The notes beneath the pieces were generated by a model, which was not told the DNA's origin, did not search any database, and saw only the letters and a program-made list of their open reading frames with translations. The translations under genes and the position numbers were made by a program. This document shows, in pieces, positions 1,408-62,851 of a DNA stretch of 64,000 bases (its first letter is position 1; every line of letters begins with the position of its first letter). Source of the stretch: Actinomadura atramentaria DSM 43919 (GTDB lineage: Bacteria > Actinomycetota > Actinomycetes > Streptosporangiales > Streptosporangiaceae); NCBI RefSeq assembly GCF_000381885.1, contig NZ_KB907208.1:310001-374000 (forward strand), given 5' to 3'.

Positions 1408-3183
1408 ATGGGCGAGTGGCGAGTCGAGGGGTTCACCGAGGTGCGCGAGCTGGGGCGCGGCGCGCAGGGGCGCGTCGTCCTCGCCCGGCACGACGACGCC
1501 GGGACGCCCGTCGCGATCAAGTACCTGACCGGTGCGTCCGCCGACCTCGACCGGCTGCGGGACGAGGCCGTGCTGCTCGGCCGCGTCGAGGACCCGCACG
1601 TCGCGCGGCTGTACCGGTTCGTCACCGGGCCGGACGGGGCGGCGATCGTCATGGAGGCGGTGGACGGCGTGCCGCTGCGGCGCGTCCTCGCCGAGCACGG
1701 GGCACTCGGGCCGGAGGCCGCGCTGGTCGTGCTGAAGGGGTCGCTGCTCGGGCTCGCGGCGGCGCACGCGGTCGGCGTCGTCCACCGGGACTACAAACCC
1801 GCGAACGTCGTCGTGCGCGGGGACGGGCTGAGCAAGCTCATCGACTTCGGGATCGCCGCGCCCGCCGGGGCGGACGGCGCGTCCGGGACGCCCGCGTACA
1901 TGCCGCCCGAGCAGTGGGCGGGACGGCCCGCCGGGCCCGCCGCCGACGTTTACGCCGCGACGTGCGTGTTCTTCGAGTGCGTGACGGGGCGCAAGCCGTT
2001 CGCCGCGCCCGGGGCGGACGGGCTGCGCGCGGCGCACCTGACCGCGCCCATTCCCGTCGCGGACGCGCCGCCGGAGCTGGGGGAACTGCTGCTGGCGGGG
2101 ATGGCCAAGGACCCGGCGCACCGGCCCGCGGGCGCGCTCGCGCTGCTCGCCGAGCTGGAACGCGTCGCGGGCGCGGGGTACGGGGCGGACTGGGAGGACC
2201 GGGGCGTGCGGCTGCTCGCGTCGGCGGCGGCCGCGCTCGCGGCGCTGTTCCCGCTCGCCGTGGCGGGGCTCGGCACCGCGCTCGGCGCGGGCGCGGGCGG
2301 CGCGGCGGGCGGTGGTGTCGCGGGGGCTGCGGGCGGTGCGGCGGGTGGGGGCGGTGCGGGGCTTCTCGCGGGGACCGGGGCGAAGGTCGCCGTCGCCGTC
2401 GTCGCGGCGGTCGCCGTCGCGGGGGGCGGCGCGGCCGCGTACACGGCGCGCGGGTCGGGCGGGCACGACGCGCCGCCCGCGAAGGGCGCGTCCCCGGCCG
2501 TCGCGCTCGCGGCGATGACGACGACCGAGCAGCACCTGGCCGTCAACGCCAAGTACGCGCGGGTGACCGGCCTCGCGGACGCGGGCGCGCAGGAGAAGGT
2601 CAACGCGGCGCTGCGCGCGCCGCTGGACTTCCACATCTCCTGGATGCGCCAGGCGAACAAGAGCATGCTCGTGCAGCCGGAGACGCGCGCGGAGTGCGGG
2701 ACGGCGGCCGTCGACACGAGCGTCAAGCTGGGCCTGAGCGGGCCGCGCCTGGTGTCGGCGCTCTACACGTTCGACGGCCGGACGTGCGCGCCGTCCGACG
2801 GGACGCTGCCCGGCTGGGCCGTCAACGCGGACCTGAAGACCGGCCGCCCGCTGACGACGGCCGACATCCTCAAACCGTCCGCGCTGACGGACGCGGGGAT
2901 CGCGGACCTGTTCCGCCGCCTGACGAGCACCGAGGAGGGCGTGTTCGGCCCGGACGGCTGCGCGGCGACGCGGCTGAAGCGCGCGGACTTCCTGCCCGGC
3001 CCGGCGAGCGGCGACGACCCGGCCGGGATTCCGGCGGCCGCGACGGTGTTCCTCGACCGCGACCACTTCGCCGTCAACTGGTCGGTGGAGGGCAGCGCGT
3101 GCATCCACGACGTGCTGACGGCCCCGTACGCGAAGGTCCGCGACCTGCTCAACCCGGACATCGCGGCCGCCCTGCCCGCCTGA
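1408..3183 (+). CDS. Membrane Ser/Thr protein kinase with C-terminal sensor-like domain
   Basis: Protein of 591 residues. The Hanks-type kinase domain spans about residues 8-260: glycine loop GRGAQG, ATP lysine K38 in VAIK, catalytic HRDYKPAN at 126-133, DFG at 146-148, and GTPAYMPPEQ at 160-169. Hydrophobic Ala/Gly-rich stretches at about 268-298 and 324-350 include at least one transmembrane helix. The remaining ~235 residues would lie outside the cell and contain several cysteines. The stretch beginning YARVTGLADAGAQEKVN resembles the RsiV-like DUF3298 family, so this part is probably a ligand sensor (inference). The gene converges on the GAP1-like gene, whose stop lies 4 bp away. It may phosphorylate parts of the neighbouring GTPase system; this rests on position alone. 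Confidence 0.88.
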   Translation: MGEWRVEGFTEVRELGRGAQGRVVLARHDDAGTPVAIKYLTGASADLDRLRDEAVLLGRVEDPHVARLYRFVTGPDGAAIVMEAVDGVPLRRVLAEHGALGPEAALVVLKGSLLGLAAAHAVGVVHRDYKPANVVVRGDGLSKLIDFGIAAPAGADGASGTPAYMPPEQWAGRPAGPAADVYAATCVFFECVTGRKPFAAPGADGLRAAHLTAPIPVADAPPELGELLLAGMAKDPAHRPAGALALLAELERVAGAGYGADWEDRGVRLLASAAAALAALFPLAVAGLGTALGAGAGGAAGGGVAGAAGGAAGGGGAGLLAGTGAKVAVAVVAAVAVAGGGAAAYTARGSGGHDAPPAKGASPAVALAAMTTTEQHLAVNAKYARVTGLADAGAQEKVNAALRAPLDFHISWMRQANKSMLVQPETRAECGTAAVDTSVKLGLSGPRLVSALYTFDGRTCAPSDGTLPGWAVNADLKTGRPLTTADILKPSALTDAGIADLFRRLTSTEEGVFGPDGCAATRLKRADFLPGPASGDDPAGIPAAATVFLDRDHFAVNWSVEGSACIHDVLTAPYAKVRDLLNPDIAAALPA

Positions 3184-3187
3184 CGCC

Positions 3188-6100
3188 TCAGGCGACCAGC
3201 CACCACACCAGCGCCACGACCACCAGCAGCACGACGACCGCGAAGGCCGTACATCCGAGGACCAGATCCGACGTCGTGTACTCGGGCTCACCGGGCGCCC
3301 GCCCACGACCGGACGCGGCGCCGGGCGCCTCACCCTCCGACGACTCGCCACCCGACCGCCCCGCCCCGCCGCCACCCATCCCGGCCCGGCGGGCCGGGGC
3401 GTCGCCGCCGTCCGGCCCGGTCCGGCGGGTCGGGAAGTCGTCACCGCCCGGCCCGGTCCGCCGCGGCGGGGCGCTGTCGCGGCCCTGGGCCGACCGGCGG
3501 GTCGGGGCATCGGCGCGGCCTTGCGCGGTTCGGCGGGTCGGGGGGTCGCCGCCCGGCTCGGCGCGTTGGGTCGAGGGGTCGGTGCTGCCCGGCCCAGGCC
3601 GGTGCGGCGGGGCGTCGTCGCGGCGGTGGGTCGATCGGCGGGTCGGGGCGTCGGTGCCGCCTTGCGCGGTCCGGCGGGTGGGGGAATCGTCGCCGTCCGG
3701 CCCGGTCCGGTGGGTCGGCGGGTTGGTGCTGCCCGGCGCGGTCCGGTGCGGCGGGGCGTTGCCGTGGTCCTGGGTCGATCGGCGGGTCGGGGCGTCGGTG
3801 CTTTGCGTGGTTCGGCCCGGCGGGGTGTCAGTGCCGCCTCGCGCGGGCCGGTGCGGCGGGGCGGCGGGATTGTCCTGCGCGGATCGGCGGGGCGGGGCGG
3901 TGCGGGGGCGGGTCAGGGAGCGGGCGGCGTCGCGCAGCGGCGGGTGGTCGCGGGCGGCGGGGGACGCCAGGACGCCGTCGCGTTCGGCCGGGGTGAGCGC
4001 GGGGCGGCCGAACGCGGCCCGCAGCAGCCGCCGCAGCGCGGCCTCCTGCGCGGCCTGGTCGTCGGGGAAGCGCGCGGCGACCGCCGCCGCGAGGTAGCCG
4101 TGCGCCGGCAGCGCCGCCGACAGGCCGGGGTCGCCCGCGCGGGCCTCGACGGCGGCCAGCAGCCGGTCGGTGTCGGCCGCGTCGACGGGGTTGTGCGCGA
4201 TCCAGCCCACGAGGTCGGCGGTGCGGACGCGGGCGAGCAGGCCGCCCCGCGCGTCCGCCGCGCCCGGCAGGTCCCCGAGCAGCAGCGCGAGCGCGGGATC
4301 GGGGACGGCGAGGCCGACCAGGACCATGAGCAGCTCGGGGTCCGGGTCGACGGCCCGGTCCACGACGTGCAGGACGTCCGCGCCGAGCAGCGCCGGGCCG
4401 TACGACAGGCGCAGCGCCGCGTCGTACAGCATCGTCCGCTGCAGCGCGGGCACGCTCGCCTGCACCCGCAGCAGGCCGCGGCTCTCCACGATCGCGCGGT
4501 GCCGCTCCCGCGCGGCCCGCCCGTGCCGCTCGTCCGCGAGCCGCCGCAACTCCGGCAGGACGGGCCCCAGCTCGTGCATCCGATGCCGGTCGAGCGCGTC
4601 CGCGCACGCGGCGAGCACTCCGGTGGCATCCCCCGCCTCGCCCGACTGCCCGCGCCCGCTCCCGCCCGCCCGCGCGCCCGCCGCCGCGCCCGCGGAGCCG
4701 CCCGACCGCCCGCCCGCCGGGTCGCCCGCCGGGCCGAGCGCGGGATCGCCTGTCGGGTCGCCTGTCTGGTAGCCCGCCGCGCCGGGCGCGGGCTCGTCCG
4801 CCCTCCGACCCGCCGCGCCGCGCGCCCGGCCGCGCCCGGCACCGCGAGCCCGGCCGCCTTCCGGGTCGCCCGCAGGCTCGTCCGCCCGGTCTCGCGCCGC
4901 GCCCGCCCGAGTACCCAGCGAGTCACCCGCCGCGCCGCCCGCCGACGCGCGCTCCGAACCGCCCACCGCGTCGCCCGCTCGACCGCGTCCACGGCCGCGA
5001 GTCCGCCCACCTTCCGGGTCGTCTGCGGGCTCGTCCGCCGGACGACCTGCCGCGTCGCGCGCTCGGTCGTATTCGGCGCTGCGCGTCCGGTCGCCTTCCG
5101 GGTCATCTGTGGGCTCGTCCGCCTGGCGACCCGCCGCGCCGCCCGCCCGGCCGCGCCCGGCACCGCGAGTCCACTCGCTTTCCGGGTCGTCTGCGGGCTC
5201 GTCCGCCCGGCGACCTGCCGCGTCGCGGGCCCGGCCGCGCCCGGCGCTGTGCGTCCGGTCGCCTTCTGGGCGGTCCGTGGGATCGTCGGCCCGGCCGCGT
5301 CCACCGCCCCGAATTCGCCTGCCTTCTGGGCCGTCTGCGGGATCGTCGGCCCGGCGGCCCGCCGCGTCGCGGGCCCGGCCGCGCCCGGCGTCGCGCGTCC
5401 GGTCGCTTCCCGGGGTGTCCGCATCGTCGGTCCGGTCGCGCGCTCGGTCGTGTCCGGCGTCGCGCGTGCGGGCGCTTGCCGGGCCGTTCGTCGCGCCGCG
5501 CGCGGGGTCGTTCGGACGGCCGCGTGCGGGGCGGTCTTCCGGGTCGTCGGCCGCGTTGGTCGGTGGGTTCTCCGGACGGCGTGCGGGGTCGAGCCGGGGG
5601 ACGCCCGCCCGGTCGGTCGGGTCGTCGGTCGGATCGTTCGGTGGGGTGCTCGCCCGGTCGTCCGTGTGGTCGCGCGCGGGGGTGTCTGGGGGGCGGTGCG
5701 TTCGTTCGGGCCAGGGGTTGCGCGTGCGGTCGCCGGTCTGGTCGTTCGGGGGGTCTTGCTCGGGGTCGTCTGCTTGGCGGGGCGAGGGGAGGCGGAGACC
5801 GCGGGTCGTGTTGCTCGCCGTTCCGGGTGGGGTGGCGCCGCCTCGGGCCGCGTCTTCAGTGGGGCGGGGCGGTGTTTCGGGGCGGTGGCCGGGGAACGCG
5901 CGGGTCAGGCGGGTCAGGGCGTCGGGGGCGGCGTCCAGGAAGGGGAGCGGGTCGGCGCTGGTCGCGAGGGTGCGGATGACGCGGGGGAGGTTCGGGGCGC
6001 GGCGCAGGATCTCCAGGTACGCGTCGACCGCGTCGTCCAGGAAGGGGTCGGGCGGCGGGCCGGTCAGGGCGAGGGTGTGCGCGCCGGGGCGGCCGCCGCG

Positions 6101-6838
6101 GCTGAAGAACAGCCGGATGCGGTGGTCCGCGGTGGCGCTGGTCCACGTCGAGGCCGACAGCGCGGTGCGCATCCCGTAGGGGAGGAGCGCGACGACCGCG
6201 TCGAGGAACCGCAGCCGGGCGTCGAGCGGCAGGCCCGCGTCGGGGACGAGGCAGACGGGCCGGCCGGTGAGCAGCAGCGCGGCGGCCGTCATCGCCGGGG
6301 CGGTGATGTCGGCGGCGATCTCGGCGGCCGACAGTTCCGGCACGGACACCCGCAGCAGCGCGCCCCCGGCCGGGACGGAAACGGGCGGACCCGCGCTCAG
6401 CCCCGTCCGGCGGCCGGGCGCGGGACGAGGCGAGGGCTCGCGGCGGGACGCGGCGTCGAACCCGGCGTTCAGCGCGTCATGGAGCGCGGCGTACGAGACG
6501 GGCCGCGCCGCGAGCGCCGCGTACGGGACGCAGAACAGCCGAGTCCCCGGCTGCGGCCGCCCGTACCGGTCCTCCGCCGCCCACTCCTGCCGCGCGACGG
6601 TCAGGTACGCGCCGTCGCCCGACCCGGCGCGGGCGAGCGTGACCTGCGGCAGCGTCTCCAGCGTCCCGGGGTCGTAGCGCCCGGCGATCTCGGCGAAGTC
6701 GGCCGCGCCGAGCCGTCCGGCGCTGCACGCCAGGACCTCCTGCCGCTGGGTGGCGGGCGAGTGGCCGAACAGCGCCCACTCCGCGGCGACCGGGACCGCC
6801 GCGTCCTCGGGCGTCGGGCCGCCCAACGGGTCCTTCAC
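3188..6838 (-). CDS. GAP1-like tail-anchored protein with long disordered repeats
   Basis: A 1216-residue protein with a GTG start preceded by an AGGGGG ribosome site. Residues 1 to about 320 align by eye with the N-terminus of the next gene upstream (6905-8896): shared LPQVT, FCVPYA, LLLTGRPV, LPYGMRTALSA and TWTSATA..IRL stretches. Residues about 735-985 match the second helical domain of the same paralogue (ADAL, HGYLA, LLRAAFG). I assign both to the GTPase-associated protein 1 family (GAP1-N2 and GAP1-M/C in Pfam, from memory). Between the domains sit about 400 residues of Arg/Asp/Gly-rich repeats, and a second Pro/Arg/Thr repeat runs about 986-1165. The final ~22 residues form one transmembrane helix followed by only a few residues, so the protein should be tail-anchored with its bulk in the cytoplasm. 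Last gene of the leftward GTPase operon, 66 bp behind its paralogue. Confidence 0.75.
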   Translation of the reverse strand: MKDPLGGPTPEDAAVPVAAEWALFGHSPATQRQEVLACSAGRLGAADFAEIAGRYDPGTLETLPQVTLARAGSGDGAYLTVARQEWAAEDRYGRPQPGTRLFCVPYAALAARPVSYAALHDALNAGFDAASRREPSPRPAPGRRTGLSAGPPVSVPAGGALLRVSVPELSAAEIAADITAPAMTAAALLLTGRPVCLVPDAGLPLDARLRFLDAVVALLPYGMRTALSASTWTSATADHRIRLFFSRGGRPGAHTLALTGPPPDPFLDDAVDAYLEILRRAPNLPRVIRTLATSADPLPFLDAAPDALTRLTRAFPGHRPETPPRPTEDAARGGATPPGTASNTTRGLRLPSPRQADDPEQDPPNDQTGDRTRNPWPERTHRPPDTPARDHTDDRASTPPNDPTDDPTDRAGVPRLDPARRPENPPTNAADDPEDRPARGRPNDPARGATNGPASARTRDAGHDRARDRTDDADTPGSDRTRDAGRGRARDAAGRRADDPADGPEGRRIRGGGRGRADDPTDRPEGDRTHSAGRGRARDAAGRRADEPADDPESEWTRGAGRGRAGGAAGRQADEPTDDPEGDRTRSAEYDRARDAAGRPADEPADDPEGGRTRGRGRGRAGDAVGGSERASAGGAAGDSLGTRAGAARDRADEPAGDPEGGRARGAGRGRARGAAGRRADEPAPGAAGYQTGDPTGDPALGPAGDPAGGRSGGSAGAAAGARAGGSGRGQSGEAGDATGVLAACADALDRHRMHELGPVLPELRRLADERHGRAARERHRAIVESRGLLRVQASVPALQRTMLYDAALRLSYGPALLGADVLHVVDRAVDPDPELLMVLVGLAVPDPALALLLGDLPGAADARGGLLARVRTADLVGWIAHNPVDAADTDRLLAAVEARAGDPGLSAALPAHGYLAAAVAARFPDDQAAQEAALRRLLRAAFGRPALTPAERDGVLASPAARDHPPLRDAARSLTRPRTAPPRRSAQDNPAAPPHRPARGGTDTPPGRTTQSTDAPTRRSTQDHGNAPPHRTAPGSTNPPTHRTGPDGDDSPTRRTAQGGTDAPTRRSTHRRDDAPPHRPGPGSTDPSTQRAEPGGDPPTRRTAQGRADAPTRRSAQGRDSAPPRRTGPGGDDFPTRRTGPDGGDAPARRAGMGGGGAGRSGGESSEGEAPGAASGRGRAPGEPEYTTSDLVLGCTAFAVVVLLVVVALVWWLVA
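4640..5500 (-). repeat. 84-bp coding repeats inside the large GAP1-like gene
   Basis: The protein repeats a 28-residue unit about six times with variation: ADEPADDPEG, then a variable pair and TR, then GAGRGRARDAAGRR. The DNA keeps the phase (84 bp, a multiple of three), so copy number can change without a frameshift. The unit alternates acidic and basic patches and has no predicted fold. A different, 12-13-residue PTRRTxxGxxD repeat is encoded at about 3390-3900. Confidence 0.7.
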
Positions 6839-6904
6839 GAACCGGCCCCCTCACGGGTCGCCACGGGTACTGAGAGCTTGCGGGTCCTGCGACGGCGGGC
6901 GCGG

Positions 6905-8896
6905 TCACCCGGTGACGAGCGCGAGCGCGAGGCCGAGGACCGCCCCGGTCGCCGCCGCCGCGCCGAGGACGAGCACGAGCATCCGGAACGCGGTGCTCTC
7001 GTACAGCCGTCCCGGATGTAAAGCGGGGTCCCCGGCGGCGGCCGGCGGCGCGTTCTGCCGGTCCCCGCTCTCCTCCCGGCGGCCGGACCGCCGCAGCCGG
7101 GGCAGCCGCAGCCCGCCCTGCTTGTCGCCGGTCGGCGGGTCGGGCGGCGGGGGCGGCGGCCAGGCGCCCATCTGCTGCGTGGGGGCGGGCGCGGGCGGGC
7201 GCGGCGGGGGCAGCTTCTTGTCGACGTCCTTGCCGAGCCCGGCACCGCGCAGCAGCCCGAGCAGGTACTCCTCGACGAGGACGTCCCACGCGTCCGGCTC
7301 CCCGCACAGCGCGAGCGCCGCGCCGAGCAGCGCGGGCGTCGCCAGGTCCCGCCGCGAGCCGACGACCTCGCGGAACTCGGCGCGGCCGAGCGGCCCCGAC
7401 CCGTACGCGGCCCGCAGCAGCGCTGTCAGCCGCTTGCGCTGCTCGTCCGGCCGGTCCGGTTTGAGCCGCGCGACGACGGGCGCGAGGTAGCCGTGCGCCT
7501 GGAGCGCCTGGACGAGTTCGCCGTTGGGCTCGGACCCGCCGCGCCGGGCGAGCGCGTCGCACGCCGTCTCGGCCGTCACCGGGTCGGCGGTGCGCACGGC
7601 GACCTCGGTCAGGACGGCCTCCCCGAGCCCGCCGAGGACGCTGTTCAGCATCTTGTTCCCGAGCTTCCACCCCACGGTGAGCTGCACTTCGGCGGACGCG
7701 ATGCCGCGCAGGTCGTACAGCGCGTACAGCAGCGGCTGGTGCAGCCCGCCCGCGGCCCGCTCGATCTGCGCGAGTTCGGCCGTGTCGACGTGCCGGAACG
7801 CGAGCTGGACCAGCAGCACGTACAGCGCCTGCGCGTCCTGCGCGCGGACGCCCCGCCGGGGCGTGAGCATCCGCCGCCGGTCGATGACCTCCCAGTGCGC
7901 GGCCGCGTCGGCGGCGGCCCGCGTCCCGCCGGCCGCGTACGACAGGCGGCGGACGGCGTCCTCCAGGTCGTCGGCGCGCCCGTCGAGCGCGTCCGCGCAG
8001 CGCGCCAGCAGGTCCGCGACGCTCTCCCCGCCGCCCGGCAGCGGCGGCGGGAGCTGCAGCGGCTCGCGGGCGCGGTTGAGCAGCAGCAGGACCTCGCGCC
8101 GGTCGGCGGGCCCGAACCCGAGCTGCCGCTTCTCCCCGGCCATCAGCTCCAGCAGTTCGAGCCGGGAGCGCCCGGCGACGAGGTCGATGTACCGCAGCGC
8201 CGCGTCCGCCTCGCGGGGGATGTCGGGCGGCTCGTTCCACACGACGGTGTGCGCGTTCTCGCGCTCGTGCCGCGCGAACGCGAGCCGGATCTGGTGCTCG
8301 GCGGTGCTGCTCGTCCACGTCGCGGCGGAGAACTTCGTGCGCATCCCGTACGGGAGGATCGCGGTGACGGCGTCGACGAACCGCAGCCGGTCCAGCAGCG
8401 GCACCGAGTCCGCGCCGACGACCTGCACGGGCCCGCCGGTGAGCAGCAGCGCCGCCGTCCGCACGACGACCCGGTCCATCCGGTCCGCGAGCGGCTGCGG
8501 GTCCGGCGGCGGCAGCTCGATCGCGGCGGGCCCGGCCGCCGGGAGCCGCAGCGCGTCGCACGCCCGGTACAGCGCCTCGTACGACACCGCGCGCTCCGCG
8601 AGCAGCGCGTAGGGGACGCAGTACAGCCGCGTCACCACGACGTCGCGGCCGACCGCGTCGTGCTCCTCGGACTCCTCCTCGATCGACAGCGTCAGGTGCG
8701 CGTTGTCGCCGGACGCGGCGCGCGCGACCGTCACCTGCGGCAGCCGCTCGGGCGTCCCCGGCGAGAACCGCTGGTTCATCGCGGAGAAGTCGTCGCGCTT
8801 GAAGACGTCCCCGCCGCACTTCAGCACCTCGTAGGCGCGGCCGCCGGGCCGCTTGCCGATCAGCGCCCACTGGACGGGCGCCGCCGCGCGGCTCAC
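6905..8896 (-). CDS. GAP1-like tail-anchored partner of the GTPase
   Basis: A 663-residue protein. Its GTG start (8896-8894) overlaps the TGA stop of the GTPase gene (GTGA), so the two are translationally coupled and probably made in fixed ratio. The N-terminal domain (about 1-290) contains WALIGKRPGG, LPQVTVA, LYCVPYALLA, LPYGMRTKFSAATW and IRLAFARHE. The second, all-helical domain (about 310-560) contains the VQALQAHGYLA motif. A Pro-rich linker (about 563-635) leads to a C-terminal transmembrane helix ending in LALALVTG. It is paralogous to the 1216-residue protein downstream but lacks the repeats. I read it as a GAP1-family protein, known from prokaryotic GTPase-centred conflict or signalling cassettes; its biochemical role is not established. 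It probably holds the GTPase at the membrane. Confidence 0.78.
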   Translation of the reverse strand: MSRAAAPVQWALIGKRPGGRAYEVLKCGGDVFKRDDFSAMNQRFSPGTPERLPQVTVARAASGDNAHLTLSIEEESEEHDAVGRDVVVTRLYCVPYALLAERAVSYEALYRACDALRLPAAGPAAIELPPPDPQPLADRMDRVVVRTAALLLTGGPVQVVGADSVPLLDRLRFVDAVTAILPYGMRTKFSAATWTSSTAEHQIRLAFARHERENAHTVVWNEPPDIPREADAALRYIDLVAGRSRLELLELMAGEKRQLGFGPADRREVLLLLNRAREPLQLPPPLPGGGESVADLLARCADALDGRADDLEDAVRRLSYAAGGTRAAADAAAHWEVIDRRRMLTPRRGVRAQDAQALYVLLVQLAFRHVDTAELAQIERAAGGLHQPLLYALYDLRGIASAEVQLTVGWKLGNKMLNSVLGGLGEAVLTEVAVRTADPVTAETACDALARRGGSEPNGELVQALQAHGYLAPVVARLKPDRPDEQRKRLTALLRAAYGSGPLGRAEFREVVGSRRDLATPALLGAALALCGEPDAWDVLVEEYLLGLLRGAGLGKDVDKKLPPPRPPAPAPTQQMGAWPPPPPPDPPTGDKQGGLRLPRLRRSGRREESGDRQNAPPAAAGDPALHPGRLYESTAFRMLVLVLGAAAATGAVLGLALALVTG

Positions 8897-9900
8897 CGGC
8901 CCGTCCCGGCGGCGCGGGCGGCCGGGGCGGCGCGGTGCGCGGCGGCCAGGCTGCGGCCGAGCCACAGCAGCGGCTCGACGACGTTGATCGGGTGGATCGT
9001 GCCGCGCACCCGGACCGCCTTGGACGACTCGGCCTCCGGCAGCAGGTTCTGGTAGTCGTCGCGGTCGAACCGGCCGACGCGCGGGTCCACGTAGAAGCCC
9101 ACCGCCGACGTCACGAAGAACCGGACCCGCTCCGGCCGGAAGTACTGGATGAGCGTGTTGTGGACGAGTTCGGCGTTGCCCGTCGCCGACACCCCGCACA
9201 GCGCGCGGAACAGGTCGCGCGCGTCTTCCTCCTCGACCTTGGGGAAGCCCAGCGGGTCGTCGGGGTCGACGGTGACGAGCCGGAGCTTCTCGGCGGTCTC
9301 CATGACGCGGATCTCGTCGAACTTGGTGATGCACACCGCGACGTGGTGCGGCAGCATGCCGTCCGCGAACTCCGGCGACTCCAGCATGCGGTTGGCGAGC
9401 TGCGACAGGACGCCGTGCAGGTAGTCGAACGCGTCCCCGTCCTCGAACTCGCGGACCGGGTCGAACAGGAACACGATCCCGCGGCTGTTCACCAGGTTGT
9501 CCACCAGCTCGCCGTGGACGCCCGCGTACCCGGAGTGCTCCTGGTCGAACAGCTCGCCGGACGGGTCGAGCAGGTCCAGCCCGATCCGGACGTCCTGCGG
9601 CGGCCGGCGGCGCAGCGCGAACCGCTTCGCCCGCTCCGCCGCCCCGACCAGGTACCACCGGTACCGCTCGATGCCGCGCGTCGCCGCCGGGAAGTGGCCC
9701 TGCGTCGCCAGCGACCCGGTCAGCCGGATCAGCGCGTCCGTGGACGGGCCGTTCGCGCCGACGACCTTCCAGCCGTCCTGCCGCCGGTTCAGCGCGATGT
9801 GCAGCGCCGCGAGGAACGTGGTCTTGCCGCTGCCCGGCGGCCCCCACATCGCGATGTTGTGCTCGGGCCGCGCCGGGGGCAGGCCGCGTTCCGGTTCCAT
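8893..9900 (-). CDS. P-loop GTPase of a GAP1-type system
   Basis: A 335-residue protein. The start was chosen at ATG 9900 because GAAGGAGA lies just upstream; a longer open frame upstream has no such site and overlaps the preceding gene. Walker A is GPPGSGKTT at residues 20-28. LDLLDPSGE fits the switch II/Walker B (DxxG) position, and ITKFDE fits the TKxD guanine-specificity motif. The sequence FLFDPVREF and the long helical C-terminus resemble TRAFAC-class GTPases found beside GAP1 proteins. No membrane segment is seen, so membrane attachment would come from the coupled GAP1 protein. It lies 32 bp after the vWA-like gene and overlaps the next gene by four bases. GTP rather than ATP specificity is inferred from TKxD. 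Confidence 0.82.
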   Translation of the reverse strand: MEPERGLPPARPEHNIAMWGPPGSGKTTFLAALHIALNRRQDGWKVVGANGPSTDALIRLTGSLATQGHFPAATRGIERYRWYLVGAAERAKRFALRRRPPQDVRIGLDLLDPSGELFDQEHSGYAGVHGELVDNLVNSRGIVFLFDPVREFEDGDAFDYLHGVLSQLANRMLESPEFADGMLPHHVAVCITKFDEIRVMETAEKLRLVTVDPDDPLGFPKVEEEDARDLFRALCGVSATGNAELVHNTLIQYFRPERVRFFVTSAVGFYVDPRVGRFDRDDYQNLLPEAESSKAVRVRGTIHPINVVEPLLWLGRSLAAAHRAAPAARAAGTGR

Positions 9901-9932
9901 GTGCGGGTCTCCTTCGATGGGCCGGGACCGCC

Positions 9933-11321
9933 TCAGGGCGTCCCGATGGGGAACGGAAGGCGCTGCGCGGCGGCGGGCGCCAGGCCCAGCGACGCGGCCA
10001 GCCGCCGCGCGTCCACGGCCGCGAGCGGGGCGGGGGCGTCGCGGCCGAGCTGCCGCCAGACGTCGTCGGCCTCCTCGGGCCGGTCGTGGATCGCGCCGAA
10101 CGCGATCCCGGGGTAGGTCCGCAGCGTCCCGAGCGCGCGCGCCCAGTCGTTGCGGGCGGGGCACGGCAGGATCTCCGACGGGTGGACGCGCGGCGGGAAC
10201 GGCGGCCGCGCGCCGAGCGCGAGCACCGCCGTGCGGACGTCCCGGCCGGGCGGCCCGAGCCGCCGCGCGACCTCGGTGAGCGCGCACTCCAGCGCGGCCG
10301 CGCGCGGGTAGCCGCGCGGCGGCGGGTCGCTGTGCGCGGCGGCGTCCAGCGCCTCCAGCGCCCGCGCCGCGCCGCCCTCCCAGATCCGGACGGCGACGGG
10401 CTCGTCGGGCGCGCGCCGCTCGAACGCGTGCGGGCCGTAGGTGAGGACGGACACCCGCAGCCGGTCGCGCAGGTCGTCGGCGGCGCTGGCGACGACCTGC
10501 TCGGCGCGGGCGAGGCGGTCGGCGTCGCGCTCGTCGCCGTCGCCCTGCTCGACGGCGACGACGAGGTGCGCGGCGGTGACGCGCGGCGGCATCCGGTCGG
10601 GGACGGACGCGACGAGCGCCTCCCACTCCCGCTCGTCGGGGACGACGGCAGCGTCGGCGTCGGGCAGCCGGAACCGGACCCGGCCGGGCCCGCGCAGCTC
10701 GGCGTCCAGGGTGTACCGGCCGGGCGCGAGCCGCACCGCGTCCTTCTTGACGAGGGAGTACCGCCGCTCCTTGCCGGACGCGACGACGGCGAGGACGGTG
10801 CCGTGCTCGTCGGCGACCTCCACGTCCACCGCGAGCGGGTTGGAGTCGCCGCGCCGCGCGCCGACCGGGAAGAGCTGCCGCGTGCCGAGGCCGAGCCGCC
10901 CCTCGGGGGTGGGGTTGAGCGTCACCAGGTCGTACCAGCGGGTCAGCGGCGTGTGGGCGATGACGTCGCGGAGCAGTTCGCCGAGCCGCACGTCGCTGCT
11001 GACGGCGACGGCGTGCGGGTGGGCGGCGCGCAGCGCGTCGAGGGCGGCGGCGCCGCGCGCGCCCTCGGGGAAGGTGTTGACGAGCAGCAGCCCGGTGGGC
11101 CGGGGCGTCCGGACGGCGCGCAGCAGCGCGTCATCGGTGGCCAGTTCGTCCCACGGGATGACGGGCCGGGACCGGCCGCGCGGGGTGTCGGCGGCGTCGC
11201 GGTGCAGGTCCCAGCGGACGAGCCCCTCGGCGGCGAGGTCGGCGACGAGCAGCGGACGCTCCCCGCTCAGGTCCGCGATGGCGGCGGCCGCGGCCTTGCG
11301 GACCTCGTCGGGTTCGATCAA
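9933..11321 (-). CDS. vWA-like protein, first gene of the GTPase operon
   Basis: A 462-residue protein. The start is set at TTG 11321-11319 because AAGGGAGGA (11339-11331) lies nine bases upstream; an in-frame GTG at 11390 lacks a comparable site. The N-terminal ~115 residues are unassigned. A beta-rich segment (about 150-220) contains PLAVDVEVADEHGTVLAV and LAPGRYTLDAEL and looks like a beta-sandwich. The C-terminal half (about 250-430) has a von Willebrand A-like layout: hydrophobic strand HLVVAVEQ, a following helix, LRVSVLTYG, a YPRAAALECALTEVARRL helix and TAVLALG. The usual DxSxS metal site is not present (EQGDG instead), so metal-dependent adhesion may be lost. Assignment to vWA is by pattern only. 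Its place at the head of the operon suggests a core subunit. Confidence 0.6.
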   Translation of the reverse strand: MIEPDEVRKAAAAAIADLSGERPLLVADLAAEGLVRWDLHRDAADTPRGRSRPVIPWDELATDDALLRAVRTPRPTGLLLVNTFPEGARGAAALDALRAAHPHAVAVSSDVRLGELLRDVIAHTPLTRWYDLVTLNPTPEGRLGLGTRQLFPVGARRGDSNPLAVDVEVADEHGTVLAVVASGKERRYSLVKKDAVRLAPGRYTLDAELRGPGRVRFRLPDADAAVVPDEREWEALVASVPDRMPPRVTAAHLVVAVEQGDGDERDADRLARAEQVVASAADDLRDRLRVSVLTYGPHAFERRAPDEPVAVRIWEGGAARALEALDAAAHSDPPPRGYPRAAALECALTEVARRLGPPGRDVRTAVLALGARPPFPPRVHPSEILPCPARNDWARALGTLRTYPGIAFGAIHDRPEEADDVWRQLGRDAPAPLAAVDARRLAASLGLAPAAAQRLPFPIGTP

Positions 11322-11400
11322 CGACGGTCGTCCTCCCTTGACGCGGGTGATTTCCGAACGCGCGAAAGCCTGACCGTCCGCACGGTCCACCAGTTACCGA

Positions 11401-11406
11401 ATTATC
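11401..11406 (-). promoter_or_regulatory. Candidate -10 element of the GTPase operon
   Basis: GATAAT on the minus strand, 80 bp upstream of the TTG start, is the only near-consensus -10 hexamer in the 227-bp divergent region 11322-11548. A partial -35 (TGTCAT) lies about 19 bp upstream of it. For the divergent DUF4407 gene, TAGGGT at 11503-11508 is a weaker candidate. Both are visual calls. Confidence 0.3.
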
Positions 11407-11548
11407 CTCCGGGGGTCTGTGGCGGATGACACACAATGGCCGGACATGGCCATCCCTATCGTCCCGGTCAGCGCGGCCCCTCGGCGGTGCTCGGGGCGCG
11501 TCTAGGGTGGAACCGGCCGCGCGGCCCCTGTTTCCTGGAGGGGAATGG

Positions 11549-13030
11549 ATGAAGGGCTTCCTGATCAACCTTTCCGGGGCCAGACCGGAGATCCTCGACA
11601 AGTGCCCGACCGAGCGCGGGAAATTCGAGGGCATCGGCGGCGCCGTGCTCATCACCAGCTCGCTCGCGGCCCTGTCGATGTGGTTCGCGCTGACGACGGC
11701 GGTCGGGCTGAACGCCGTGGTCTCGGTGGTGCCCGCGGCGGCGTGGGGTCTGGCGATCATGAGCCTGGACCGCTGGCTGGTGACGTCGATCCCCGCGGAC
11801 GGGGCGCGGCGGTGGCGGCTCGCGGTCCCGCGCATTCTCCTGGCGCTGCTGCTGGGGTTCGTCGTCTCGACGCCGCTGGTGCTCCAGATCTTCAAGTCCG
11901 AGATCGACGCGCAGATCACCGAGATCAAGCAGCACCGCGCGGACGACTTCCAGGCCCGCCAGCGGGACGGGGAGATCGGCAAGCAGGTCGTGTCGCTGCG
12001 CGGGCAGGTCGCCGCGCGGCAGAAGGTGGTCGACAGCAACGGGGACGTCCCGGTCGATCCGGCGACCGATCCGAAGGTCAAGGCCCTCACCGCCGAACGG
12101 GACAAACAGCAGCAGGAAACCACGAAGCTCTATAAAGAATGGCAGTGCCAGCTCTACGGCGGCGCGAACTGCCCGCGCAAGGGCGACGGCCCGCTCGCGC
12201 AGGCCAGTAAGAAGGCGTACGACGAGGCGCAGGGCCGCGTCAACGATCTCAACGCGCAGATCGACGCGCGCAAGAAGCAGCTCTCGTCCGACGACGAGCA
12301 GTCCAAGCGGGCGCGCGTCGACCAGGCCAAGCAGGACCTGCCGAAACTCCAGGAGCAACTGGACGCGGCCGTCCGGCGGCAGGCCGACCTGCAGCGCGCG
12401 TTCGACGCCGAGAACAAGGCGGACGGCGGCCTGCTCATCCGCCTTCAGGCGCTCGACCAGGCGTCCGGCAAGGACCTCACGCTGAACGGCGCGCGGCTGC
12501 TGCTGTTCCTGCTGTTCCTCGTCATCGAGTGCCTGCCGGTGTCGGTGAAGCTGATGCAGAAGCCGGGGAACTACGAGCGCGTCCTCGCGCTGGCGGCGCG
12601 GCGCGAGTACCAGGACGCGCGGGACAGCCTCAGCCCCGTCCCGACCGCGCACGGCGGGCACGCCGCGTCGTCGGTGCGCGACATCTGGACGCGCGACCGC
12701 GACGCGCCCGATCCCGCCGCGCCCGCCGCCGACGCCGAGAAGGCCGCGGCCGAGCCCGAGCGGCCGACGCGCGTCCAGGAGCCGTGGGACGAGACCGACC
12801 CGGCCGGGCCGCGCGGTTTCGACGTGCCGCGGCCCGCGCCGCCCGCCCGGCCCGCGGAGCGGATGAACGGCACCGCGACGCGGTACGACAGCGCGCCGCC
12901 CGCCGAGGAGCCGATCTCGCCCGACGACACGGCGCTGCGCGCGATGGACGCGGGCCGCGCCGACCGCGACGACGACCTGTCCGGCGACTCGGGCGGCATC
13001 GAGCTGTACCCCGACAACGACCCGTACTGA
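11549..13030 (+). CDS. DUF4407 membrane/coiled-coil protein
   Basis: A 493-residue protein; ATG 11549 follows GGAGGGG by five bases. Two hydrophobic segments lie at about 30-73, with SLDRW after them, a pattern typical of the DUF4407 family. A third is at about 92-114 and a fourth at about 312-335 (LLLFLLFLVIECLPV). Between helices three and four lie about 195 residues of charged, heptad-like sequence with a Cys pair (CQLYGGANC), probably an external coiled coil. The C-terminal 150 residues are Pro/Ala/Asp-rich and disordered, ending in LYPDNDPY. It is divergent from the GTPase operon and seven bases ahead of a kinase gene, so it could be a membrane scaffold or sensor of the same system (inference from position). 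The acidic Ser/Thr-containing tail is a plausible kinase substrate. Confidence 0.75.
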   Translation: MKGFLINLSGARPEILDKCPTERGKFEGIGGAVLITSSLAALSMWFALTTAVGLNAVVSVVPAAAWGLAIMSLDRWLVTSIPADGARRWRLAVPRILLALLLGFVVSTPLVLQIFKSEIDAQITEIKQHRADDFQARQRDGEIGKQVVSLRGQVAARQKVVDSNGDVPVDPATDPKVKALTAERDKQQQETTKLYKEWQCQLYGGANCPRKGDGPLAQASKKAYDEAQGRVNDLNAQIDARKKQLSSDDEQSKRARVDQAKQDLPKLQEQLDAAVRRQADLQRAFDAENKADGGLLIRLQALDQASGKDLTLNGARLLLFLLFLVIECLPVSVKLMQKPGNYERVLALAARREYQDARDSLSPVPTAHGGHAASSVRDIWTRDRDAPDPAAPAADAEKAAAEPERPTRVQEPWDETDPAGPRGFDVPRPAPPARPAERMNGTATRYDSAPPAEEPISPDDTALRAMDAGRADRDDDLSGDSGGIELYPDNDPY

Positions 13031-13037
13031 GCCGCCC

Positions 13038-14879
13038 GTGGTGGAACGCGTGGGACGCGATCGGCTGCTCAACGGCCGGTACCGGCTGCTGGACCGGCTC
13101 GGCACCGGCGGGATGGGCAGCGTGTGGTCGGCCGAGGACACCGTCCTCGGCCGGACCGTCGCGCTCAAGGAGCTGACGCACCACCTGTCGGGGCCGGACC
13201 TCGCCGAGCGGCGCGCGCGGGCGCTCCGCGAGGCGCGCGCGCTCGCCCAGGCGGAGGACCCGGCGATCGTCCAGATCTACGACGTGTTCGTCGAGCGGGA
13301 CGATCCGTGGCTGGTGATGCGTTACCTTTCCGGGCCTTCGCTGGCCGATCTCGTCGCGCAGGAGCCGCAGGACGAGTACAGCGTCGCCCGCATCGGGCTG
13401 CGCGTGCTGCGCGCGCTGACCGCCGCGCACGGGGCCGGGGTGCTGCACCGCGACGTCAAGCCCGCGAACATCCTGCTCGACGGGGCCGGGCTCGCGTACC
13501 TGGTCGACTTCGGCATCGCGCACATCAGCGGCGCGACGGCGCTGACGGCCGCGAACACCGTCCTCGGCACGTTGGAGTACATGGCGCCCGAACGCATCCG
13601 GGGCGAGGCGGTCGGGCCGCCGTCCGACCTGTGGTCGCTCGGGGTCACGCTGTTCTACGCGCTGGAGGGGCGGTCGCCGTTCCGGCCGGGCGGGGAGGAC
13701 GCCGCCGCGACGATCTGGGCGATCATGAGCGGGCCGGTGCCGCGCCCGGCCCGGCCGGGGCCGCTCGCGGACGCCGTCGCGGGGCTGCTGGAACGCGACC
13801 CGGACGCGCGGCTGCGCGCACCGGAACTGGACGCGGCACTCCGCGCGGCCCTCACGGCACGCCCCCGCACCCTCCCCGACCACGGACGGCCGGACCGGCG
13901 CGGGCCCGGATACCGGCCGCCTGACCCTTACGCGCCTGATCCCTACGCGCCCGACCCGTACGCGCAGGACGCCTACGCGCCGGACCGGCGCGCGCCCGAC
14001 CGCGCCTCCGACCGCCCGGCCGACCGCCGCGCGCCCGCGGACCGGACGCCGGACCGCCGCGCGCCGGACCGTGCGTCTGATCGTGCTTCGGGCCACCCGT
14101 CCGACCGCGCCTCCGACCGCCCGGCCGATCGCGCCCCCGGCCCGGCGTCCGACCGTCCCTCGGCGCGCGACCGTCGTTCGTCCGACGACCGCGCGGCCGG
14201 GCGCGCGCCGCGCCGGGGGCTGTCGGCGCGCGATCCGGGCGGGCGCGACGAACCCACGCGCGCCGCGCCGGCGCCCCGCGTCCCCGGCCCGTCGCCCGAC
14301 GCGGGCCGGATCGCGCGGGCCGTGCGGGGCCTGCCGCCCGCCGACGCCGCCGCCGAGCTGCGCCGCCGCCCGCCCGCCGTCGTCCGGGACGTCCTCGCGG
14401 GGCTCGGCCCGGCCGCCGGTCCCGTCCTGCTCGCGCTGCCCGGCGAGACCGCCGCGCAGGTCCTGGCCGTGTCGGGCCCCCGGACGGCGGCCGTCCTCCT
14501 GGACGCGATGGCACCCTGGCCGGACCGCGCCGCCCACGTCGTCCGGATGCTGTCCACGACGCACACCGCCCGCGCGTTCGGCTACCTGAGCGAGGCCGGG
14601 GCGGGCGCGCTCGCCGCCGCGATGCCGCCCCGCGACGCCGCCCGCGTCCTCGGCGGGACGGACCTGCGCGCGGCGGCGGCCGTCCTCGGCGCGCTCCCGG
14701 TCCCCGCCGCCGCGCGGATCGTGGACGCGATGGCGGTGCGGCAGGCGTGCGCGGTGCTCGGCTACGTCCCGTCCGACACGGTCGCGGCGATCGTGCGGGC
14801 GTCGGCGGGCGGGCGCGGCGACCGGCTGCTGGCCGGGCTGAGCGGCCCCGTCCGCACCCAGGTGCTGCGCCACCTCTGA
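13038..14879 (+). CDS. Ser/Thr protein kinase fused to MgtE_N/FliG-like helical repeats
   Basis: A 613-residue protein starting GTG 13038, seven bases after the DUF4407 stop; no clear ribosome site is seen, which suggests coupling. The kinase domain (about 8-270) has GTGGMG at 22-27, K44 in [12 protein letters not shown] at 138-145, DFG at 158-160 and EYMAPE. A low-complexity linker (about 295-395) carries DPYAP repeats followed by Asp/Arg/Pro/Ser dipeptides. The C-terminal ~200 residues are short helical repeats ([38 protein letters not shown]) like the MgtE N-terminal or FliG-type superhelix, normally a protein-docking or Mg-sensing module. No transmembrane helix is evident. I infer that this end docks to a partner in the GTPase/DUF4407 system. 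Confidence 0.85.
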
Positions 14880-14923
14880 CGCGGGGTACGTACCCGGACG
14901 AGGACGACACCGAGGGGGCGCGC

Positions 14924-15925
14924 ATGCGGGCGTGGGAGGTCGTGGAGCCGGGGCCGATCGAGGACGGGCCGCTGCGGCTCGTCGAGCGGCCGGCGCCCGA
15001 GCCGGGGCCGGGCGAGCTGCTGGTGCGCGTGCGGGCGTGCGGCGTGTGCCGCACGGACCTGCACGTCGCGGAGGGCGACCTGCCCGTTCGCAAACCGCGC
15101 GTGACGCCGGGCCACGAGGTCGTGGGCGAGGTCGCGGGGCTCGGCCCGGGCGCGGCCGGGTTCGCGGAAGGCGACCGCGTGGGCGTCGCGTGGCTCCGGC
15201 ACACCGACGGGACCTGCCGGTACTGCCGCCGGGGCGCGGAGAACCTGTGCCCGGCGTCGCGGTACACCGGCTGGGACGCGGACGGCGGGTACGCCGAGTA
15301 CACGACCGTCCCGGCGGCGTTCGCCTACCGGCTGCCCGCGGAGATCGGCGACGTCGCGCTCGCGCCGCTGCTGTGCGCGGGCATCATCGGGCACCACGCG
15401 CTGCGCCGCGCGTCACTGCCGCCGGGCGGGCGGCTCGGCCTGTACGGCTTCGGCGGCAGCGCCCACCTGTGCGCGCAGGTCGCGCTGGCCGAGGGCGCGA
15501 CGGTCCACGTCCTCACGCGCGGCGACGCGGCGCGGGAACTCGCCCTCTCGCTCGGCGCCGCGTCGGCCCGCGACGCCTACGACGCCCCGCCGGAGCCGCT
15601 GGACGCGGCGATCCTCTTCGCGCCCGCCGGCGAACTCGTCCCGGTCGCCCTCCAGGCCCTCGACCGCGGCGGCGTCCTGGCCGTCGCGGGTATCCACCTG
15701 AGCGACGTCCCGCCGCTGAACTACGAACGCGACCTCTTCTACGAGCGCGAACTGCGCACGGTCACGTCGAACACCCGCGAGGACGGCCGCGAGTTCCTGG
15801 CCCTCGCCGCCCGCCACGACGTCCGCGCCACGACCCGCACGTACCCCCTCGAATCCGCCCAAGAAGCCCTTCAGGACCTCAAGGCGGGCCGCTTCCCCGG
15901 CGCCGCCGTCCTCACCACGGACTGA
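14924..15925 (+). CDS. Zinc-dependent alcohol dehydrogenase family protein
   Basis: A 333-residue medium-chain dehydrogenase; ATG 14924 follows GAGGGGG. The catalytic zinc site is seen as CGVCRTDLH and GHEVVGEV. The structural zinc site keeps cysteines around CRYC and NLCPAS, somewhat reduced compared with the classical CxxCxxCx7C. The nucleotide-binding [10 protein letters not shown] motif lies mid-protein. It most resembles the AdhA/propanol-preferring group; the substrate cannot be predicted. It stands 44 bp after the kinase gene, in the same direction, but its function suggests it is unrelated to that system. It converges on the sigma-factor gene with 21 bp between stops. Confidence 0.85.
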
Positions 15926-19381: not shown

Positions 19382-22075
19382 TCAGGTGCCGAGCAGTGTC
19401 GCTATCGCCTCGGCCGACGCGGGGTGCGTCGTCAGGAGGGGGAGCGCCGTGGACGCGGGCGGGGTCGTCGCCACGCCCAGGAGCGCCGCCACCGCGTCCG
19501 CCGTCGCGGGATGCTCCGACAACAGGCCCGCCGCAGGTCCCGAGACGGCGACCGGCGCGGCCGCCGGGCGGCGTTCCCAGGGCGGCGTCCACGCGTCCAG
19601 CGCCGGAAGGCCCGCCGGGAACGTCCGGCCCGCCTCGCGCACCAGCACCGGCACCAGGTCCGCCGCCTGGTCCCGCAGCGTCGTGATCAGCACGGGCAGC
19701 CACGGCAGCAGCACGTCGTCGGGCAGCCGCCCGAACGCCTTGGAGATCACCTCCACCACGACCGGCGCGAGCGCGGGCGCGGCCTCCAGCGCCTGCACGA
19801 ACCCGCTCAGGTACTGCGGGAACACCGGCACGGTCAGCGGGTTGTCCAGCAGCGCGTCGCACCGCGCCCGCAGCTCGTCCCGCGACAGCAGCCCCACCTG
19901 GTACCGCGCGACCCACTGCAGCGCGACCTTGGCGGGCGCCTCGGGATGCGACTGCCGGACGGCCAGTTCGAGCTGCGCCCGGTCGCAGCCGAGCGACAGC
20001 GCCAGCCCCTCCATCCCGAACAGGAACCCGAGCATCGCCGCGACCTGCCGGACCCCGGTGTCCTCGTCGGCGAACGCGGTCGGCAGCAGCGTGCAGTACT
20101 GCGCGTACCCGGTCGTGACGAACCGCTCGCACCACGGCGGCAGCGCGGGCTCGGTCGCGCGGAAGTGCGCGAGCAGCCGCCGGGCGCGGCGCAGGACGTC
20201 CGGCGCGTCGTCCACGGTGCGCTCGGCGGCGAGCAGGTCCGTCCCGCGCGCGCCCAGCTCGTCGGCGAACCGGCGGCCCTTGAGGTACAGCAGCGCGTCC
20301 TCGACGGCCGCCAGCGCCGTCGCGGCCGTCGCCCCGGGCGCGTGGACGGACCGCCGCAGCCGCCCCTCCAGCACCTGCTCGACCGTCACGCCCTCGTACC
20401 CCAGCTCCACGAGCGCCCGCTGGTTGCGGCCGATCGCCAGGTCCCAGCTCTCCTGCACCGGCTCCTCGCCGAGCCGCCGCGCGCCCATGATCGGCCGCAC
20501 CGCGTCGCCCGGCAGCAGCCGCCGCAGCATCCACAGCAGGTCCGAGCACGGCCGCAGATCAGGGTCGGCGTTGAGGTCGAGCAGGGCGCGCTGGATCGTC
20601 CGGGCCTTCAGATCGAGGCCGAGCGGTTCCAGCCGGTCCAGGACGTCCCGGGCCAGCGGCGGCAGCGCGGCGTATCCGACCTGCCCGATCCGGTCGCCGC
20701 CGAGCAGGATCTCGCAGAGCCGCCGCACGTCGCGGCGGCCCGGCACGACGTCCTTCTCGATGCAGGTGACGGCCGCGTCCTGGAAGTCGTACGGCGTCGG
20801 CCGCGCCCGGTCCCGCATCCCGGCGAGCAGGATCGACGTCTCGAACACCGCGATGGCGTCGGCGGTGCTCGCCGGGTACCCGTTGCGGCGGGCCAGCCGG
20901 ACGATGTCGACGCTCCAGCCGAGCAGTTCCGCCTCGTCCAGCCCGTCCAGCGCGGGAGGCCGCTCCAGGAACGCGGTCAGCCGGTCCGCGACGGGCGCGG
21001 CCGGCGCGGGTTTCGCGCGCGCGGTGTCCGGCGACCCGTCCAGCCGGAACGGCTTGACGCGCGCCCGCCGCAGCGCCTTCTGCCACGTCGCGGCGGCGAT
21101 CGACACCGAGCCCGGCGCGAGCCCGAACTGCGCCTCGATCGCCGAGTGGCTCGACGGGATCAGCCCGTACAGCCACCGCGTCCCCGTGCGCGGCGACACC
21201 TCGAACGCGGCCGTCGAACCGCTCCCGAACTGCTCGACGCGGCTCGCCGCGTGGTACGCCCCGCACACGTACAGGCAGTCGCCCGGGTCGGTGCCGGACG
21301 CGGCCAGGTGCTCGCGCATCCGCGTCCACATGTACCGCTCGCGGTCCTCGTTGCGGCGGCCGTCGTCGCCGTCCGGCCGCAGCCGCCGGAACAGGCTGCC
21401 GATCATGACCATGACCTGCCGGTACGTCGTGTAGTCCGCGCCCGACAGCGGCTGCTCGACGTACTGGTCCCACCACTCGGACCAGTGCCGCACCCGCCCG
21501 TGCCGCAGCAGGTGCTCCTCCAGTTCGGCGAACCCGGGCCGCAGGTCGCCGATCTCGACGCCGACCGCGTCGCCGTGCAGCCCGGCCTCGTCCGCCGACG
21601 ATTCGGCGGGCTCGCGCGGCGTCCACTGGAACACGTGGTCCGCCGACCGGTCCACCGGGACCAGCTCCACGCCCGGCGTCTCCAGCGCGTACGCGATGGC
21701 CTGGTACTCCGCCGAAGCCTCGGTGATCGGCGCGACGACGCTCAGCGGCCCCCAGTCCGCCGGATGCCCGTCCAGCTCGGACGCGAAAGCCTGCAACGCC
21801 ACCGGCAGCTTGCAGTGCCGCAGTTCCTCCAGCAGCGGCGCGAGGTCCTCGCACAGCTCCAGGTAGACGACCTTCGGCCGCTTCTCCCGCAGCCGCCGCG
21901 CCATCGCCAGCGCGGACGCGGGGGAGTGGTGGCAGACCGGGAAGACCTCCAGTTCCTCCGCGAGCGCCCGGTCGACGTCGTCCACCATGCCCGCGAGGAT
22001 CTCCGGCACCGCCCCGCCCGCGACGGCCCCGGCGGCGTCGAGCAGCCGTTCCCGGAGCGCGGCGAACGGGCTCAC
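19382..22075 (-). CDS. DUF5682 family protein (YehM-like), last gene of MoxR/vWA operon
   Basis: An 897-residue protein. Its GTG start (22075) overlaps the stop of the MoxR gene (GTGA). The N-terminus has the DUF5682 hallmark VFPVCHHSPASALAM (about residue 45 on), followed by VVYLELCEDL and LPVALQAFASE, a TraB/TIKI-like pattern suggesting a hydrolase-type fold. DCLYVCGAYHAASR is a second conserved His/Cys stretch. The C-terminal half is helical, ending in short repeated motifs with LLSEHPATADAVAALLG and LLTTHPASAEAIATLLG. The family is known only from co-occurrence with MoxR ATPase, vWA and SWIM proteins; no biochemical function is established. The E. coli counterpart group would be yehLMPQ. 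Cytoplasmic, with no signal or membrane segment. Confidence 0.8.
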   Translation of the reverse strand: MSPFAALRERLLDAAGAVAGGAVPEILAGMVDDVDRALAEELEVFPVCHHSPASALAMARRLREKRPKVVYLELCEDLAPLLEELRHCKLPVALQAFASELDGHPADWGPLSVVAPITEASAEYQAIAYALETPGVELVPVDRSADHVFQWTPREPAESSADEAGLHGDAVGVEIGDLRPGFAELEEHLLRHGRVRHWSEWWDQYVEQPLSGADYTTYRQVMVMIGSLFRRLRPDGDDGRRNEDRERYMWTRMREHLAASGTDPGDCLYVCGAYHAASRVEQFGSGSTAAFEVSPRTGTRWLYGLIPSSHSAIEAQFGLAPGSVSIAAATWQKALRRARVKPFRLDGSPDTARAKPAPAAPVADRLTAFLERPPALDGLDEAELLGWSVDIVRLARRNGYPASTADAIAVFETSILLAGMRDRARPTPYDFQDAAVTCIEKDVVPGRRDVRRLCEILLGGDRIGQVGYAALPPLARDVLDRLEPLGLDLKARTIQRALLDLNADPDLRPCSDLLWMLRRLLPGDAVRPIMGARRLGEEPVQESWDLAIGRNQRALVELGYEGVTVEQVLEGRLRRSVHAPGATAATALAAVEDALLYLKGRRFADELGARGTDLLAAERTVDDAPDVLRRARRLLAHFRATEPALPPWCERFVTTGYAQYCTLLPTAFADEDTGVRQVAAMLGFLFGMEGLALSLGCDRAQLELAVRQSHPEAPAKVALQWVARYQVGLLSRDELRARCDALLDNPLTVPVFPQYLSGFVQALEAAPALAPVVVEVISKAFGRLPDDVLLPWLPVLITTLRDQAADLVPVLVREAGRTFPAGLPALDAWTPPWERRPAAAPVAVSGPAAGLLSEHPATADAVAALLGVATTPPASTALPLLTTHPASAEAIATLLGT

Positions 22076-23184: not shown

Positions 23185-23196
23185 CGCAGTGTCTCC

Positions 23197-62278: not shown

Positions 62279-62343
62279 CCCCGTTGGCTGGGTGGGCCGC
62301 CCCGTCCCGCCCAGCCTCTCCGAACAGGAAGGCCAGCGCGGCA

Positions 62344-62535: not shown

Positions 62536-62597
62536 CTCCCCCCGGTCGGGCGGGTCGCCCTGTCCCGCCCAGCTCTCACGGGAAGACCGGTGAAGCG

Positions 62598-62792: not shown

Positions 62793-62851
62793 CCCCCGGC
62801 TGGGCGGGTCGCCCCGTCCCGCCCAGCCCCCACAGGAAGGCCGGAGACACG

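Follow-up and report, generated by a model that had tools for sequence, protein, structure and literature searches.

A six-gene locus of Actinomadura atramentaria DSM 43919, lying within the 64,000-nucleotide (nt) stretch of contig NZ_KB907208.1 (positions 310,001 to 374,000) that was analysed here (the window), very probably encodes a membrane system for signalling or defence; its general type is known, but its form is distinct and undescribed. It consists of two divergent gene sets: four leftward genes for a von Willebrand factor A (vWA)-like protein, a DO-GTPase, and two GAP1-like proteins (b, then a), and two rightward genes for a DUF4407 protein and a Ser/Thr protein kinase. DO-GTPase/GAP1 systems are a predicted class of conflict systems (Kaur et al., 2020; PMC7159879). 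We give an even chance to the interpretation that the locus represents a compact divergent subtype among these systems, in which a membrane-tethered G-protein switch would receive kinase input.

The DO-GTPase and the GAP1-like Proteins

On sequence grounds the GTPase is firmly assigned as a DO-GTPase homologue, which bears out the original prediction of a GTPase of conflict-system type. It matches PF19993 (DO-GTPase2) in Pfam at 29.0 bits (cut-off 27) and has the motifs G1 (GPPGSGKT), G3 (DPSGE), G4 (TKFD), and G5 (TSA); in the family as a whole the aspartate and glycine of G3 are invariant and the glutamate is not, the window protein having the Walker B glutamate. Profile-profile comparison (hhalign) with canonical DO-GTPases of the same genomes gave a probability of 98.7% (E-value 2e-16) over an alignment that spans the C-terminal PxNVxEPxxWL motif, against less than 1% for unrelated decoys and 32% for an AAA+ P-loop protein. 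Sequence searches of the PDB with the GTPase, GAP-like, and vWA-like profiles returned nothing useful.

The two large proteins, originally predicted to be GAP1-like paralogues, each carry a C-terminal hydrophobic tail anchor (transmembrane prediction) and appear to be distantly GAP1-like, through GAP1-M only. Twelve of the 31 members of the GAP-like family match GAP1-M in Pfam (best E-value 5e-4), protein a itself scoring 16.2 bits, below the cut-off of 24, and every other Pfam family is matched by at most one member. The prediction thus holds for the tail anchors and GAP1-M; GAP1-N1, GAP1-N2, and GAP1-C have no match among the 31 members. A six-frame search of the genome for PF20013 (GAP1-N2) found only a separate canonical copy. 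When whole GAP-like proteins were compared profile to profile with canonical GAP1, the result was not significant and did not rise above decoys, a weak negative because the canonical profile was narrow (Actinomadura only). An unlikely alternative would make the large proteins a separate family of GTPase partners, the GTPase alone tying the locus to DO-GTPase systems; the unmatched GAP1-N and GAP1-C, the whole-protein comparison, and the structural matches to TagF and longin folds described below are consistent with this, whereas the preponderance of GAP1-M among the Pfam matches argues for GAP1 kinship. So does gene position: a GAP-like gene immediately follows the GTPase gene in the 44 loci examined (overlapping it by 4 nt in 23 of them), and in GAP1-N2 systems, too, the GAP1 gene lies downstream of the GTPase and its product has a C-terminal transmembrane segment (PMC7159879).

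A model of GAP-like protein b, built from five sequences, is of moderate confidence (pLDDT 72, pTM 0.45). It has an N-terminal domain of beta-beta-alpha-beta-beta-beta-alpha order, resembling a longin domain, followed by an alpha/beta middle, an all-helical C-terminal part, a disordered linker, and a transmembrane helix; three structural parts are therefore visible, although of the N, M, and C parts of GAP1 only M is matched by sequence. Against the PDB, Foldseek gave a single match with an E-value below 0.001, to TagF (2.7e-5), a repressor of type VI secretion; weaker matches were to further TagF structures, an FNIP2 complex (E-value 0.08), the Lst4 longin domain (probability 0.98 at E-value 0.2), and PAS folds. 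The likeness to TagF and to longin/DENN-type regulators (Lst4, FLCN-FNIP) covers the N-terminal and middle parts; it comes from the model, whereas the sequence of protein b matches none of these proteins, and no DENN or TagF match was seen in Pfam for the GAP-like proteins. The longin fold is PAS-like, is known to bind GTPases, and forms the first part of the tripartite DENN module (PMC3521125). The model thus offers a weak lead that the N-terminal domain may be longin-like, as in TagF, Lst4, and FNIP2. A more far-reaching reading, which we regard as improbable, is that the GAP-like proteins are tail-anchored longin-plus-DENN-like regulators (longin N-terminal domain, alpha/beta GAP1-M middle, and helical C-terminal part) that would set the nucleotide state of the DO-GTPase at the membrane, a role that FLCN-FNIP/Lst4-Lst7 or DENN modules have for GTPases of eukaryotes.

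GAP-like protein a shares 54–55% identity with its 576–579 amino acid (aa) orthologues in the N-terminal half and 47% in the C-terminal half; these orthologues lack its insert. Its gene contains in-frame coding tandem repeats at 3380–3802 and 4966–5295, with periods of 36/72/144 and 84/168 bp, which encode the long R/D/P/G-rich inserts missing from those orthologues.

The vWA-like Protein, the DUF4407 Protein, and the Kinase

The vWA-like protein has no Pfam match (none to fn3 either), and its model is of low confidence (pLDDT 54). That model contains a beta-rich stretch of about seven strands, and Foldseek matched it to the von Willebrand factor A3 domain (TMt 0.54), factor B, other vWA proteins, and DnaK/Hsp70s. 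The original vWA-like label is consistent with these fold matches; the residues of the metal-ion-dependent adhesion site are missing, and an alignment of relatives shows a conserved C..E..G pattern instead. Longer relatives bear an N-terminal zinc ribbon.

The DUF4407 protein matches PF14362 at 1.3e-78, in agreement with its predicted identity, and transmembrane prediction gives three transmembrane helices, a coiled coil, a fourth transmembrane helix, and a disordered C-terminal tail. The kinase has intact catalytic residues, no transmembrane segment, and matches to PF00069 (1.9e-44) and PF03448 (MgtE_N; 2.2e-9), the latter being the "docking domain" noted originally. From topology and linkage, it is reasonable to infer that the DUF4407 protein and the kinase form a sensory arm. 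DUF4407 was found in 22 of 22 GTPase-positive genomes and in 2 of 14 GTPase-negative ones (Fisher p = 7e-8, which overstates independence because the genomes are related); in one of the positive genomes (G029), there is only a GTPase fragment and DUF4407 is unlinked. DUF4407 was rejected as an exclusive marker of the GTPase set, since it sits in other operons too, in loci L168–L175 without the GTPase. Another recurrent operon, without the GTPase set, has a gene of about 700 aa, a gene of about 430–500 aa, and DUF4407 head to tail (surveyed loci L168, L169, L171, L172, L175, and L179).

Conservation and Co-divergence

Loci were surveyed with gene calls made in this analysis and with family profiles. 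Of 59 close and distant relatives, 22 carry the GTPase, and all 22 belong to the genus; the nearest relatives found include A. rayongensis and A. macra. Across the family, 33 of the 121 genomes and 20 of the 68 genera have it. At greater distance, one other genus of the class yielded it in two genomes, and a 678-kb linear Streptomyces plasmid carries it as well. GAP1-N2 is present in 38 of 40 Actinomadura genomes; the canonical GAP1-N2 system of A. atramentaria itself (L089, G000:C15) has genes for an Hsp70-like protein, a zinc-ribbon DO-GTPase, and a transmembrane DO-GTPase.

Counting the window, 28 loci in Actinomadura and 14 further genera keep the divergent order kinase-DUF4407/vWA-GTPase-GAP(-GAP), among them 18 of the 20 loci drawn from other genera of the family, and the spacing between the vWA and DUF4407 genes ranges from 134 to 774 bp. 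These are not near-identical copies, as GTPase identities among loci are 33–84%. A longer operon, present in about 14 loci (including L041, L042, L044, L046, L049, L052–L057, L159, and L176), encodes DUF4407, a radical-SAM protein (Fer4_12/radical-SAM), a 460-aa protein of no recognised family, a double AAA+ ATPase, vWA, GTPase, GAP, and two further proteins, one of them weakly Hsp70-like and the other a coiled-coil protein. The vWA-like gene is kept in both versions and the kinase is present in the compact one; DUF4407 differs in orientation between them, with linkage retained.

Among the four components GTPase, DUF4407, vWA-like protein, and GAP-like protein, pairwise distances correlate at r = 0.88–0.97, compared with 0.46–0.61 against canonical GAP1-N2 of the same genomes, and the partial correlations stay at 0.86–0.97 when the canonical distances are controlled for. 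Co-divergence arises partly from the split between compact and long subtypes, and so it shows that the components are inherited together rather than that they touch one another. Co-conservation of the two halves, on which the original prediction had staked itself, is thus strongly borne out. That the halves are unrelated neighbours grouped by chance is very improbable: DUF4407 does occur in operons without the GTPase, and a Streptomyces form lacks DUF4407 and has in its place, beside a kinase, a VWA_2 protein that appears to carry a signal sequence, but both halves persist together in the 28 loci and four components diverge in step. On the linear Streptomyces plasmid (L180, NZ_CP109366.1, 7172–16398), one operon holds the GTPase, a probable vWA-like and a probable GAP-like gene (by position), a vWA domain protein, and a kinase, the first three genes being annotated as hypothetical.

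Relation to Known Systems and Proposed Mechanism

The closest known relatives are the DO-GTPase/GAP1-N2 systems, especially theme 3 with a kinase and vWA (PMC7159879). Shared with them are a DO-GTPase followed by a GAP1-type protein, the C-terminal transmembrane segment of the latter, a kinase, a vWA-type protein, and multicellular actinobacterial hosts. The window locus differs in having no GAP1-N2 by Pfam and a GTPase without a zinc ribbon, and in adding DUF4407 and a kinase with MgtE_N. The GASH helical partner of the GAP1-N1 subtype had no Pfam match at an E-value of 1 in the window proteins. The main text of Kaur et al. (PMC7159879) makes no mention of DUF4407; the paper's supplementary tables may list some of the loci. 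Our literature search found no paper other than Kaur et al. that deals with DO-GTPase/GAP1 systems and no experimental study of them, and it found DUF4407 only as a passing term in three papers.

For a compact divergent DO-GTPase/GAP1 subtype, we propose that the input arm would consist of the membrane-spanning DUF4407 protein and the kinase encoded beside it, and that this kinase would phosphorylate one of the switch components. Control of GTP/GDP cycling in the DO-GTPase would fall to the two tail-anchored GAP1-like proteins, which would also hold it at the membrane in a complex, with the vWA-like protein as a possible adaptor. An envelope or intracellular threat may be the trigger, changing the assembly state of the switch such that the membrane would be affected or a partner recruited; the direction in which the GTPase is regulated could be either. 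A conflict role (anti-phage or against rival bacteria) is tentatively favoured over ordinary signalling.

The best evidence for a conflict role is indirect and by association only, namely the sharing of domains with predicted MoxR-vWA-VMAP ternary systems (PMC7159879). These systems adjoin some of the loci and have vWA-like or DO-GTPase domains in common with them, whereas the window locus itself lacks MoxR, VMAP, and a peptidase. A MoxR-type AAA gene and a gene for a large vWA-type protein adjoin the locus in L035, L036, L037, L039, L117, and L165. Pfam detected VMAP domains alongside trypsin in L035, alongside caspase in L117, and, away from the six-gene set, in L167; L036 gave a weak VMAP-M0 match. 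The large protein holds a copy of the vWA-like protein in L036, L037, L039, and L165, and a DO-GTPase domain in L035 (with a kinase domain), L117, and L167. In L035 (A. macra, 11856–15155), this is a 1099-aa protein kinase/DO-GTPase2-like fusion, and in L167 (4984–10491) an 1835-aa protein with WD40 repeats, AAA, and a DO-GTPase-like domain; both adjoin a MoxR gene and a trypsin-VMAP gene.

Several results weigh against the locus being a DO-GTPase/GAP1 conflict system, in addition to the absent GAP1-N and GAP1-C matches and the whole-protein comparison given above. No effector is recognisable in the compact version, and PADLOC returned only generic kinase model matches. FNIII (fibronectin type III) repeats and PP2C, features in Kaur et al., were not detected among the genes scanned; of the theme 3 set of active kinase, PP2C, and standalone vWA, the locus has the kinase and a degenerate vWA. 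That the locus occurs in roughly one quarter to one third of family genomes suits signalling as well as defence. It is possible, though we think it the lesser prospect, that the locus is instead a housekeeping or developmental membrane switch (for envelope stress, hyphal growth, or specialised metabolism), conservon-like in function and unrelated to conflict with phages or rivals. Conservons (CvnA-D) likewise combine a GTPase, a regulator, a kinase, and a membrane protein into a membrane-linked G-protein switch with kinase-type input in actinomycetes (PMC8510531, PMC13343842), there is a reported link between DO-GTPases and membrane stress (PMC11237479), and both the lack of a recognisable toxic effector and the membrane-embedded DUF4407 would suit such a role. 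However, conservons use a Ras-like GTPase, an MglB roadblock protein, and the histidine-kinase-like CvnA, none of which was found among the window proteins, where the counterparts are a DO-GTPase, GAP1-like proteins, and a Ser/Thr kinase; the patchy distribution and the parts common to VMAP ternary systems also resemble conflict systems.

Locus Layout and Neighbouring Genes

The six genes lie in the two divergent sets originally described, and the GTGA overlap was confirmed by sequence (Table 1). The likely start of DUF4407 is at 11549, not 11426.

Table 1. Features of the six-gene locus (positions are those of the window).
Feature	Position	Strand	Basis
GAP1-like protein a, 1216 aa, tail-anchored, R/D/P/G-rich repeat inserts	3188..6838	-	Sub-threshold GAP1-M
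GAP1-like protein b, 663 aa, tail-anchored	6905..8896	-	Family GAP1-M matches, model
GTGA overlap, 4 nt (GTPase stop/GAP-like b start)	8893..8896	-	Sequence
DO-GTPase, 335 aa	8893..9900	-	PF19993, motifs, hhalign
vWA-like protein, 485 aa	9933..11390	-	Predicted N-terminal Hsp70/RNase H-like region, beta-sandwich, degenerate vWA
Divergent intergenic region, 158 bp, presumed bidirectional promoter	11391..11548		Divergent spacing in 28 loci
DUF4407 membrane protein, 493 aa	11549..13030	+	PF14362
Ser/Thr protein kinase with MgtE_N-like C-terminal domain	13038..14879	+	PF00069, PF03448

A second kinase gene (1408–3183), which had suggested a locus with kinases on both flanks, exists but is convergent with the six genes and absent next to all other loci; it was rejected as a member and, being incidental, leaves that suggestion unsupported. 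In L164 an extra STK10-type kinase lies past the GAP genes, separated from them by a further gene. Genes for Methyltransf_19 and alcohol dehydrogenase, found only in close relatives or scattered, were likewise rejected as members. At 4–5 kb from the locus, a leftward cluster (19382–26314) includes a MoxR-type AAA_5 gene (22072–23184) and a CoxE-type vWA gene (23197–24429), together with two other genes that were scanned without a Pfam match. Farther away, at 62087–63552, is a tandem array of six closely similar genes of about 63 aa (WRKSTRS...CVEVA), which resemble DUF397, behind a possible XRE-type regulator (61278–62099).

Implications

The locus would add a widely conserved, apparently undescribed subtype to the predicted class of GTPase-based conflict systems, and it supplies DUF4407 with a set of partners, both physical and evolutionary. 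Should the longin-like lead hold up, it would show how GAP1 proteins touch their GTPases; were the longin-plus-DENN reading true, GAP1 systems generally would be the prokaryotic counterpart of DENN-type regulation. The compact six-gene version, free of accessory genes, is tractable for the study of GTPase regulation, kinase input, and protection.

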